Origin: Pseudobdellovibrionaceae bacterium
Lineage (GTDB): Bacteria; Bdellovibrionota; Bdellovibrionia; Bdellovibrionales; Bdellovibrionaceae
Reading direction: 5' to 3'
DNA: 64,000 bases
Assembly: GCA_019637875.1 (NCBI GenBank)
Contig: JAHBUW010000005.1
Coordinates: 124,001-188,000, forward strand
Each line of letters begins with the position of its first letter. Position 1 is the first letter of the stretch. The notes beneath the pieces are model-generated. The model had not been told where the DNA came from and ran no database searches. It saw only the letters and a list, made by a program, of their open reading frames with translations. Both the position numbers and the translations under genes were made by a program. Below, one piece after another: positions 18,883 to 60,208 of the stretch.

Positions 18883-18982
18883 AAGAGACTTTTCGGCATC
18901 TTCCGGAAAGAATTCAGGTATTTCGCGGCTTTTTCTCAATTGAAGGCGCGCTCCGCACCCGCCGTCTCAGAAAGGTACAGAA

Positions 18983-19033
18983 GGTACCACGTACCGCACG
19001 CGGTACATGGTACCGCGTGCGGTACGTGGTACC
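18983..19033. repeat. 51-bp perfect inverted repeat (GGTACCACGTACC family)
   Basis: Perfect 24-base arms (18983-19006 and 19010-19033) flank a three-base centre ATG. The arm starts GGTACCACGTACCGCA. It begins one base after the queF stop codon and lies upstream of the DUF3857 gene on the same strand, a position suited to a terminator or transcript-stabilising hairpin, although no T-run follows. The same 16-base arm occurs at 57463-57494. Confidence 0.9.
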
Positions 19034-25461: not shown

Positions 25462-26420
25462 TGGAGGTCTCTGCGCGCGAGGATCGGACTCCCGTCCTTG
25501 CGACGTCCACCGACCTGGTCGGTTTCAGTCGTGATCAGATTCAGAAGGGCTCGAAGAGCTTTTCTTTCGCCTCGTTCTTTTTCTCGAAGACCGAGCGCGA
25601 GGGCGCCTGGCTTTTGTATTCGTGGTGCCGGGCCTGCGATGACCGCATCGATCAAGCCCCCTCGGCGGAAGCGCAACTGCAAGCGCTGGCGGATCTCGAG
25701 CGCGACACCCGTCGGGCGGCGCGCGGCGACCAGACTTTGACCGATCCCGTTTTTCAGGGACTGGCCGTGGTCCTTCGCGAATTCCAGATTCCCGAAAAAT
25801 ACCCTCTCGATCTTCTGCGCGGCATGCGTATGGACGTCGAAGGACGTGAGTACCAAACGCTCGAAGAGCTTGAAGAGTACTGCTACTGCGTGGCGGGCGT
25901 CGTCGGCTTGATGATGTGCCACGTGATGGGCCTGAGCGATAGCCGCGCCCTTTCGAACGCGGTCGCCATGGGTTCGGCGATGCAGCTCACGAACATCTGC
26001 CGCGACGTCGAGGACGACCTGGCGCTCGGCCGCATCTATATCCCCACCAACTTTCTGCTGGAAGTGGGACTGACCCGCGCGAATTTCGCCACTCCCCTGG
26101 GCCGCGCGCGCTGGCCGGCTTTGACGGCGCGGCTTTTGGACGCAGCCGACGAGCGTTACCGCCACGGCGTCGCCGGGCTTCGCTATCTGTCCTTCCGCGC
26201 GGCGCTCGCCGTCGCCATCGCGGGTCGCGTTTACCGCCGTATCGGCGTGAAAGTCCGTGCGCGCGGCGCGCACGCATGGGAAAATCGGACCTACACTCGC
26301 CTTCCCGAAAAACTCGCGACCGCGCTGATCGCGACCGCAGATGTGGGACGGCGACTGTTCACGCGGCTCTGGCGCCCCTGGCGACCGGCGCGTATCGACC
26401 GGGTTTGGGGGCAAACATGA
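25461..26420 (+). CDS. crtB: Phytoene synthase (CrtB)
   Basis: A 319-residue squalene/phytoene synthase-family enzyme condensing two geranylgeranyl diphosphates. The two Asp-rich motifs are visible: CRACDDRIDQ and NICRDVEDDLALGRIYIP. YSWCRACDDRID and GMRMDVEGREYQTLEELEEYCYCVAGVVG are characteristic of CrtB. The first ATG overlaps the crtI stop. The C-terminus (about 290-319) is Arg/Trp-rich and runs into the crtZ start by a four-base ATGA overlap. Confidence 0.95.
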   Translation: MEVSAREDRTPVLATSTDLVGFSRDQIQKGSKSFSFASFFFSKTEREGAWLLYSWCRACDDRIDQAPSAEAQLQALADLERDTRRAARGDQTLTDPVFQGLAVVLREFQIPEKYPLDLLRGMRMDVEGREYQTLEELEEYCYCVAGVVGLMMCHVMGLSDSRALSNAVAMGSAMQLTNICRDVEDDLALGRIYIPTNFLLEVGLTRANFATPLGRARWPALTARLLDAADERYRHGVAGLRYLSFRAALAVAIAGRVYRRIGVKVRARGAHAWENRTYTRLPEKLATALIATADVGRRLFTRLWRPWRPARIDRVWGQT

Positions 26421-26911
26421 TGTACGGATGGACGCTCAGCTCGTGGATGATTTTCGTCGCGACCTTCGTCGTCATGGAGTTCGTCGCCTGGGGCCTGCAC
26501 AAATACGTCATGCACGGCTTTCTGTGGTGGCTGCATCGCGACCACCACGATCCCGCGCACACGGCGACCTTTCAGAAGAACGACGCCTTCGCGTTTTTCT
26601 TTTTCGCCCCGAGCTTTCTGTCGATCTTGTTCGGCGCGATCTATCTGAATCCGGATCTTTCGGCTTTCGGCTTCGGCATCATGGCCTATGGCGCGGCCTA
26701 CTTCACGGTTCACGAGGTCATCATCCACCGTCGCCTCACCTGGTTCCGCTCGCGCGGCTTCTACATGAACGCGCTGGTCGCGGCCCACAAAAAGCATCAC
26801 GCGAAACACGGCAAAGAGGACGGCGCCTACTTCGGGATGTTGATGATCCCGCCGGAAGAGATCGTGCGCGCCTTCCGACGCGCACGCGGGCGGACTCGCT
26901 CCACCACTTAA
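26417..26911 (+). CDS. crtZ: Beta-carotene hydroxylase (CrtZ-type)
   Basis: A 164-residue membrane di-iron hydroxylase of the fatty-acid hydroxylase superfamily. All four His clusters are present: HKYVMH, HRDHH, HEVIIH and HKKHH. Hydrophobic stretches lie between them. The enzyme adds 3-hydroxy groups to beta-ionone rings. The C-terminus ends GMLMIPPEEIVRAFRRARGRTRSTT, and a near-identical DNA segment is found 2 kb downstream (28855-28888). Overlap with crtB shows it is the last gene of the operon. No lycopene cyclase is present in the window, so the ring-forming step must be encoded elsewhere if the product is zeaxanthin. Confidence 0.93.
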   Translation: MMYGWTLSSWMIFVATFVVMEFVAWGLHKYVMHGFLWWLHRDHHDPAHTATFQKNDAFAFFFFAPSFLSILFGAIYLNPDLSAFGFGIMAYGAAYFTVHEVIIHRRLTWFRSRGFYMNALVAAHKKHHAKHGKEDGAYFGMLMIPPEEIVRAFRRARGRTRSTT

Positions 26912-28845: not shown

Positions 28846-28965
28846 GGAGTCTATTTCGGGATGTTGATGATCCCGCCGGAAGAGATCGCGCGGGCCGCTC
28901 TCAGGAATCGTCCCGGATGCGGATCCTGCTGCAAGAACCAGCCAAGCCCCGGGTTCGCACGTTAG
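28846..28965 (+). pseudogene. crtZ 3'-end remnant
   Basis: An open stretch translates GVYFGMLMIPPEEIARA, almost the same as GAYFGMLMIPPEEIVRA near the end of crtZ. Bases 28855-28888 are identical to 26831-26864 (34 bases). Upstream of 28846 nothing resembling crtZ remains, only AT-rich unrelated sequence, and the frame then diverges and stops at 28963-28965. It looks like the end of a duplicated or replaced crtZ copy. The rest of 28752-29156 (about 400 bases between genes) holds no other gene; its early part (28795-28850) is AT-rich. Confidence 0.72.
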
Positions 28966-29156: not shown

Positions 29157-29927
29157 TTGACCGAAAAATCGAGTCTCTTTCAGTACTGCGTTCATGAGCT
29201 CAAACTCTCTGAAGCGGTGACTTCGGCGTTCATCACGGTCTCTCGAAAAGCGGCGGTGATTCCCCCTCTGATGGAGGCGTTGGAAACCCAAGCCCTCACC
29301 GTCTCGAAAGCGGCGAAGATCACCTCGGCACTGGATATCCAGCACGTCGAAGAAACCAATGACGTCATCGAGTTCGCGTCCCAACACTCGACCGCCGAGA
29401 CCGAGAAGTGGCTTCGGGAGAAGAAGGGGATCGAAACTGTCCACAACTTGAAGCTCGATTCGGCCACGATGGCGAAACTCAAGAAAGCGCCCACGCTCAC
29501 CAAACAGAGTCTCACGCTTGAACAAACCCTCGCGTTGGTTCTGGATGAATACATCGACAGACACGACCCGCTCGAGAAAGCGAAGCGCCGTCAAAAACGG
29601 AAAGACACTGGATATCCAGTGCGGAAAACTCAGTCGAAAGACGGAAATATTTTGCCAACGGCGAAACCTCCCGCATCCGGCACCATCACGAAAACTCAGG
29701 TCGTACGGTCCGTCACGCGCCGACCCCTTCCAGCCCAGATCAAACACTTCGTGATCCAGCGGGACCAAAACCGCTGCACGTATGAGATCCGGCCCGGCCT
29801 TCGCTGCGCCCATACGAAAAATCTGGAAATTCATCACCGTACGCCCCTCCAGAACGGAGGAACCGACAACCCGGAAAATCTGGGCCTGCTGTGCTCGGCT
29901 CACCATCAAATGGCGCACCGGCACTGA
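29157..29927 (+). CDS. HNH endonuclease, Bdellovibrio-type, N-terminally short
   Basis: A 256-residue protein starting with TTG at 29157. The C-terminal HNH domain has C207, C217, H226-H227, N241, C246 and H249/H250 (CTYEIRPGLRCAHTKNLEIHHRTPLQNGG). The N-terminal half (LSEAVTSAFITVSRKAAVIPPLMEALETQ) matches the helical region of HNH proteins common in Bdellovibrio, which usually begin about 50 residues earlier. This copy therefore appears truncated at its start or uses another start. It contains CACTGGATATCCAGTG-type palindromes in two frames. Such proteins are often multicopy and may be mobile or involved in genome plasticity; its activity is unknown. Confidence 0.75.
   Translation: MTEKSSLFQYCVHELKLSEAVTSAFITVSRKAAVIPPLMEALETQALTVSKAAKITSALDIQHVEETNDVIEFASQHSTAETEKWLREKKGIETVHNLKLDSATMAKLKKAPTLTKQSLTLEQTLALVLDEYIDRHDPLEKAKRRQKRKDTGYPVRKTQSKDGNILPTAKPPASGTITKTQVVRSVTRRPLPAQIKHFVIQRDQNRCTYEIRPGLRCAHTKNLEIHHRTPLQNGGTDNPENLGLLCSAHHQMAHRH
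29329..29344. repeat. Imperfect copy of the CACTGGATATCCAGTG palindrome
   Basis: CACTGGATATCCAGCA matches the palindrome at 14 of 16 positions. It is read as ALDIQH in the HNH protein, whereas the second copy (29606-29621) is read in another frame as TGYPV. Confidence 0.6.
29606..29621. repeat. Perfect CACTGGATATCCAGTG palindrome
   Basis: A 16-base perfect palindrome inside the HNH gene, translated DTGYPV. The same 16 bases occur at 56442-56457 in a non-coding stretch. Confidence 0.85.
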
Positions 29928-56441: not shown

Positions 56442-56457
56442 CACTGGATATCCAGTG
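56442..56457. repeat. Perfect CACTGGATATCCAGTG palindrome
   Basis: The same 16 bases as 29606-29621, here outside any supported gene. Confidence 0.85.
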
Positions 56458-56489
56458 TTGGGGTGCGTGGCGATTCGAAAATCGACTTC

Positions 56490-56512
56490 GTCACTTCCGA
56501 ATCGGAAGTGAC
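56490..56512. repeat. Inverted repeat GTCACTTCCGA-A-TCGGAAGTGAC
   Basis: Two perfect 11-base arms around a single A. It could be a dimer operator or a recombination-related site; no gene starts close to it. Confidence 0.75.
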
Positions 56513-57462: not shown

Positions 57463-57546
57463 GGTACCACGTACCGCATGCGGTACGTGGTACCGCGCGC
57501 GGTACCTGCTACCTTCCAGAAAGTAGCAGGTACTTTCCGGAAAGTA
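57463..57546. repeat. Cluster of three palindromes of the GGTACC family
   Basis: A 32-base perfect palindrome (57463-57494) uses the same 16-base arm as the 51-bp repeat at 18983. It is followed by GTACCTGCTAC/GTAGCAGGTAC (57502-57533, loop CTTCCAGAAA) and an overlapping TACTTTCCGGAAAGTA (57531-57546). The block starts three bases beyond the terminator and ends four bases before the ppdK stop. Confidence 0.88.
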
Positions 57547-57550
57547 GATG

Positions 57551-60208
<2,658 letters not shown>

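Follow-up and report, generated by a model that had tools for sequence, protein, structure and literature searches.

DUF222-HNH proteins, such as those of the 13E12 repeat family of mycobacteria, consist of a DUF222-type N-terminal domain and a C-terminal HNH domain and are encoded in multiple copies per genome, and in all these respects they resemble the protein family described below. In the open-licence literature searched, neither cognate palindromes nor a ParB-like fold was reported for the 13E12-type DUF222-HNH proteins, and no description of a system composed of an HNH gene and a palindrome was found. Another likeness is to those homing endonucleases, such as I-TevI, that in addition bind an operator of their own gene: a nuclease gene lies near sites that its product recognises (a recognition that is predicted in the present case). 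The HNH loci differ from them in showing neither an intron nor a disrupted target and in having intact sites on both sides of the gene. Proteins and short palindromes are also paired in the ParB/parS, Noc/NBS and KorB/OB systems: the DNA-binding domains of ParB contact palindromic parS with two-fold symmetry (PMC7383237), and Noc nucleates on 16-bp NBS sites (PMC8429893). With these systems the HNH family shares a predicted DNA-binding fold, one short perfect palindrome per protein (here of 14–20 bp) and a specificity that varies between related proteins; unlike parS and NBS, the HNH palindromes are situated at the protein's own gene and away from oriC, and there are many paralogues per genome. 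Finally, in RAYT/REP (REPIN) systems the enzyme gene has short palindromes of a particular class on its flanks, these are also found alone in the genome, and enzyme and palindrome co-vary (PMC3116915). The arrangement of the HNH system is similar, but its enzyme is an HNH nuclease instead of a Y1 HUH enzyme, its palindromes also occur inside the enzyme gene and carry no evident GTAG tag, and it combines a multi-copy gene with few palindromes, whereas RAYT is single-copy with many REPs.

The gene compared here with these systems lies in the window (the whole stretch of 64,000 nucleotides that was analysed) at positions 29157–29927 of the plus strand (ORF 29157–29924). Based on its ORF, alignment and leader comparison, it is a 5'-truncated HNH gene of subfamily A, encoding 256 amino acids from a TTG codon, and it shows 68–76% identity to four paralogues of the source genome (G000), located on contigs C1, C4, C12 and C25 (the window belongs to C5). 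Three parts are distinguished on the plus strand: the remainder of a predicted N-terminal ParB/Noc-like (DUF222-type) DNA-binding domain (29169–29432; from alignment to the full-length paralogue L012 and from the L012 model), a linker between this domain and the HNH domain (29583–29712; from alignment, variable in the family and partly disordered in models) and the HNH nuclease domain (29805–29921; Pfam PF01844, E 1.6e-5, residues 217–255). The subfamily A paralogues start with MTNQELHLKTKSVAKTYLQIE, and their conserved leader begins with TTGACCG, 182 bp before the ATG. In the window, the codon for residue 43–44 follows TTGACCG almost directly, which indicates that about 300 bp, including the first long helix, are missing; the gap takes in about 42 codons of the N-terminus and the greater part of the 182-bp leader. 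As judged from its sequence, the gene may be a degraded, non-functional copy, and since it is truncated its sites may be relics bound by the proteins of the intact paralogues.

Repeats were also observed around the HNH genes. A 46-bp piece at 26827–26872, which is the 3' part of an ORF (26276–26911) probably encoding a carotenoid hydroxylase/fatty-acid hydroxylase type protein, recurs with 93% identity at 28851–28896, just upstream of the HNH gene. At the very start of contig C25 (L014:1–40) a GATA tandem repeat stands directly upstream of an A-type HNH gene, and several HNH loci of relatives likewise stand at the ends of contigs, a pattern suggestive of assemblies being broken by repeats.

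In the first-pass annotation of this DNA, a palindrome perfect at 29606 and imperfect at 29329 was described as being translated as LDIQ in one copy and as TGYP in the other; motif search and the frame of the HNH ORF bore out both statements. The 16-letter palindrome CACTGGATATCCAGTG (palindrome A) is matched perfectly at 29606–29621, within the linker, where it is read as D-TGYP-V, while positions 29329–29344 of the plus strand read CACTGGATATCCAGCA, which agrees with it in 14 of 16 bases, retains a perfect 12-bp core and is read as A-LDIQ-H. A third perfect copy, overlooked at first pass, was found at 56442–56457, between an SMC gene and an alpha/beta hydrolase gene. These are the three matches with up to 3 mismatches in the window (0.15 expected; 3 were reached in 0 of 100 shuffles). 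The two copies within the gene are different in kind, as that at 29329 is homologous and conserved in the paralogues, while that at 29606 is placed in the fast-evolving linker. The stand-alone copy is separated by 32 bp from a stand-alone copy of palindrome B, GTCACTTCCGAATCGGAAGTGAC (56490–56512), the palindrome of a second HNH subfamily. A 111-bp stretch that includes the 56442 copy is 67% identical, in inverted orientation, to DNA upstream of the C12 gene (L012:994–1098), in which palindrome A and a degraded palindrome B are spaced similarly to those at 56442–56512, an arrangement that could have arisen by copying of a composite unit. An HNH gene remnant at 56442 was considered and rejected, as tblastn gave no convincing match (best E 0.01).

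In the source genome, palindrome A hardly occurs outside a single small family of HNH nuclease genes. Its 12-bp core, CTGGATATCCAG, is present in 9 copies in the 3.98-Mb genome (reversed control: 0), 8 of which lie within about 0.6 kb of four of the five subfamily A genes (C4, C5, i.e. the window, C12 and C25), the ninth being the stand-alone site at 56442. The earlier proposal of a genome-wide motif is thus wrong, since the core occurs nine times in 4 Mb and almost every copy is at an HNH gene. The copies occupy three kinds of places: about 250–380 bp upstream of the ATG (C4, C12 and C25), the linker (intact in the window gene; C12 and C25 have degraded versions) and the LDIQ codons (in each of the five paralogues, with a one-base variant in C1). 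Outside the LDIQ position, 4 of 5 sites fall in 0.25% of the genome (P about 2e-10). The count over the genome and other HNH loci that had been proposed with the first-pass annotation therefore gave a frequency above chance and presence at the paralogues, the opposite of a random frequency with absence from other HNH loci. Beyond the source genome the word behaves differently: a 13-mer gave 6 hits in 60 relatives, which is the chance level, and the 16-mer occurred in 47 stretches of the GTDB collection (85,000 species, 257 Gb), compared with about 60 expected with random bases, with no HNH family proteins found near these 47 stretches. A universal or phylum-wide motif was ruled out by these chance-level counts in relatives and species. 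A peptide-pattern search of GTDB contigs revealed no close homologues, and phage and plasmid records gave no match.

Selection or copying at the DNA level, as opposed to the peptide, had been suggested from the two reading frames, and it is supported by the fact that the same word also occurs in non-coding DNA upstream of paralogues and by synonymous-site conservation at the LDIQ copy. Four A paralogues use identical codons at only 35% of their invariant amino acids, and the LDIQ site lies within the gene's longest run of codons free of synonymous differences (ten codons; P 0.001 in a permutation that treats codons as independent); when the fifth paralogue was added, the longest run gave P 0.02 and adjoined the LDIQ site. 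The upstream and linker copies are located in regions without alignable homology between paralogues (a homology of the C12 upstream flank to the C25 linker, E 0.01, was too weak to use). Disordered linkers tolerate extra residues, which explains the use of two reading frames: in the linker the DNA site matters and the peptide does not.

Sister HNH families have palindromes of their own. Subfamily B of the same genome is associated with the odd-centred palindrome ACTTCCGAWTCGGAAGT, of which 17 copies were found by the pattern ACTTCCGNNNCGGAAGT, 9 of them beside B-type HNH genes (P about 6e-14). Separately, a tandem array of twelve or more 14-bp units, AGTTCCCAATCGGA, which are like half of palindrome B, stands upstream of a B-type HNH gene on contig C11 (L021:173–343). 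HNH genes of relatives are accompanied by further palindromes (CCTGTCGYRCGACAGG, CAGTTCTTAAGAACTG and others), again upstream, downstream and in the linker. Genome G038 contains 47 copies of CCTGTCGYRCGACAGG, with arrays of up to six palindromes and downstream copies, and G055 contains 8 copies of AGTTCTTAAGAACT; both palindromes flank HNH genes on both sides, and each is absent from four other genomes tested. Several further classes are found in G052 and G047, with at least four palindromes in G052. Linker palindromes occur in B genes, in G038, G052 and G047 and in the pair L081/L084, and an arrangement of one upstream and one in-gene site, about 0.8–1.2 kb apart, recurs in several lineages. 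A palindrome with 7-base arms was repeated within the locus at 23 of 104 HNH loci and at 0 of 117 control windows (36 of 104 and 3 of 117 with 6-base arms), although these counts overstate independence, some of the 104 loci being related or appearing twice.

The class of the palindrome follows the lineage of the HNH protein. The tree comprised 85 family members, 33 of which have an assigned class (classes were set by hand, after inspection). These 33 require 6 changes for 7 classes, which is the minimum, while 500 shuffles of class on the tree required 15 or more; when G052 and G047 were taken by themselves, the number of changes was again minimal, at three (shuffle mean 5.9, minimum 3). The residues of the recognition helix vary from class to class but hardly at all within one. 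The same class is found in sister genes of different genomes, i.e. L081/L084, which are syntenic and have kept both sites, and L135/L143, which are not syntenic and whose shared DNA starts about 60 bp outside the upstream palindrome and extends as far as the stop codon. As the shared DNA of the latter pair spans the upstream palindrome, the palindrome travels with the gene.

A domain search of 44 family members detected HNH in all of them and DUF222 (PF02720) in 17. The window protein and the full-length A protein L012 scored for HNH only, so that the assignment of DUF222 in subfamily A rests on alignment with other members. AlphaFold2 models of L012 (subfamily A, mean pLDDT 90.7) and L026 (subfamily B, mean pLDDT 81.8) were compared with PDB chains, and their residues 16–131 and 21–144, respectively, matched the DNA-binding domains of ParB, Noc and KorB best (Z 8.9 for A and 8.7 for B, 101 residues aligned, 2.6 Å; unrelated folds 5.8 or less). 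The top 12 chains for A and the top 10 for B were all ParB/Noc/KorB, with Z of 7.2–8.9 and about 100 aligned residues. From these models, the N-terminal domain appears to have the ParB/Noc DNA-binding fold. Foldseek E-values taken alone were not significant for the model comparison, and profile comparison with local ParB proteins (hhalign) gave a weak link (P 0.003, probability 11%), so the relationship to ParB rests on structure. The modelled A and B proteins differ from ParB in that they appear to lack the CTP-binding ParB N-domain and end in a linker and HNH domain; they begin directly with the helical domain, and none of the 44 members matched ParB Pfam models at the single threshold used (E 0.01). 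Linker residues 210–223 of L012 and 226–289 of L026 have pLDDT below 50. PADLOC returned weak hits only, mostly to the HNH part. An IscB/HEARO identity was rejected: only the HNH part (residues 194–255 of 256) matches IscB, with 34 bits against a cut-off of 175, and no HEARO RNA was detected in ten loci at E 0.5.

The near confinement of palindrome A to one HNH family, together with the separate palindromes of sister families, suggests that it is probably the recognition sequence of the ParB-like domain. That the HNH protein itself uses the palindrome as a parS-like recognition site, with one palindrome per subfamily, is given a probability of about two in three, and binding of a palindrome by its cognate HNH protein is likely on the basis of the models. 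The first-pass annotation had mentioned a recognition site as one possibility, and this is the best-supported reading, given the resemblance of the N-domain to ParB/Noc and the different palindromes of sister HNH families. These proteins combine a predicted ParB/Noc-like (DUF222-type) DNA-binding domain, a partly disordered linker and an HNH nuclease domain, and each subfamily's protein would recognise its own palindrome as a dimer, with copies placed upstream of the gene, in the linker, downstream in some lineages and, in a few cases, elsewhere on their own. Several observations count against a parS-like site: the C1 paralogue of subfamily A lacks a palindrome both upstream and in the linker, there are stand-alone copies (1 of A and 8 of B), palindromes belonging to a named class are absent from 52 of the 85 loci on the tree, every G044 and G012 copy among them, and Z near 9 is moderate for a helical domain. 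RAYT/REP, IscB/HEARO and host operators fit the data worse.

Of the interior homology breakpoints between the HNH loci of G038, 46% fall no more than 30 nt from the centre of a palindrome (10% expected; the breakpoints come from pairwise alignments of related loci and the counts are not independent), and the locus L097, which lacks the HNH domain, is joined exactly from the linker palindrome to the downstream palindrome. Both observations are consistent with breakage or recombination at the sites, whichever enzyme acts. The flanks of L081 in three related genomes contain neither gene nor palindrome, but are rearranged. Nicking or cutting by the HNH domain at or near the site could plausibly drive rearrangement and the spread of gene and palindrome, and the upstream site might plausibly serve for autoregulation. 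A selfish system, in which a ParB-like HNH nuclease would cut or nick its cognate palindrome, palindromes and gene copies would spread and recombine and new specificities would emerge as protein and palindrome co-evolve, is a tentative reading that is less likely than not; such a system would be a counterpart of RAYT/REP with an unrelated enzyme at its base.

Among the alternatives, a purely autoregulatory role would have the HNH protein bind the upstream and in-gene sites, form a loop and repress its own gene, with the nuclease being irrelevant. It is compatible with binding by the HNH protein and agrees with the recurrence of the upstream and in-gene pair in several lineages, but is unlikely as a full account, because the arrays of G038, the downstream and stand-alone copies and the breakpoints go beyond regulation. 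Operators of a host regulator (such as LexA) controlling the HNH genes would account for those palindromes found about 170–380 bp upstream of HNH genes, and 13E12-family (DUF222-type) genes are listed in the LexA regulon of Mycobacterium tuberculosis (PMC5005354); this is nonetheless decidedly improbable, as the sites concentrate at HNH genes, where linker and downstream positions are occupied too, and are not the same in the different HNH lineages of one genome. With different palindromes for several HNH lineages per genome (two in the source genome, at least four in G052), one host regulator is inadequate.

Alternatively, the palindromes could be REP elements spread in trans by RAYT (Y1 transposase) that accumulated in HNH genes by chance. 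RAYT-type genes (PF01797) are present in the source genome and its relatives, REPs can occur within genes (PMC3733652) and stand-alone intergenic palindromes exist, but palindromes A and B are absent at two RAYT loci of the source genome, the G038 and G055 palindromes are absent at six RAYT loci of these two genomes, the palindromes flanking the RAYT gene of contig C8 (L196) belong to another family (GGTACC...GGTACC), inspection of the flanks of palindrome A sites revealed no shared GTAG or CGTC tag, and the palindrome class tracks the HNH lineage, all of which makes this explanation very improbable. RAYT loci of the source genome (L196) and of G038 (L198) have palindromes of their own (GGTACC type; AAAGGTGcctacCACCTTT with a GTAG-like tag) and can serve as a positive control in searching for enzyme–palindrome pairs. 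The window also contains large GGTACC...GGTACC and TACTTTCCGGAAAGTA palindromes (57463–57560 and 18980–19033), and the core TACTTTCC has 18 copies with at most 1 mismatch in the source genome; as the same GGTACC family flanks the C8 RAYT gene, the palindromes at 57463 and 18980 are probably RAYT-associated REPs. Coincidence combined with ordinary coding conservation of LDIQ and a repeated word inherited by gene duplication would suit the homologous position of the 29329 site in all paralogues and the roughly chance number of the 16-mer in 85,000 species, none near the HNH family, yet is hardly credible given the upstream and linker copies without alignable homology, the recurrence of the same arrangement with unrelated palindromes and the contrary result of the control-window comparison.

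DUF222-HNH proteins occur commonly, and in multiple copies, in this group of bacteria, and no function was found for them in the literature searched. The predicted ParB-like fold and the presence of at least seven protein–palindrome classes make binding and cleavage directly testable. If it is true that these proteins move or rearrange DNA at their sites, they would join RAYT as a second type of enzyme tied to dispersed short palindromes.
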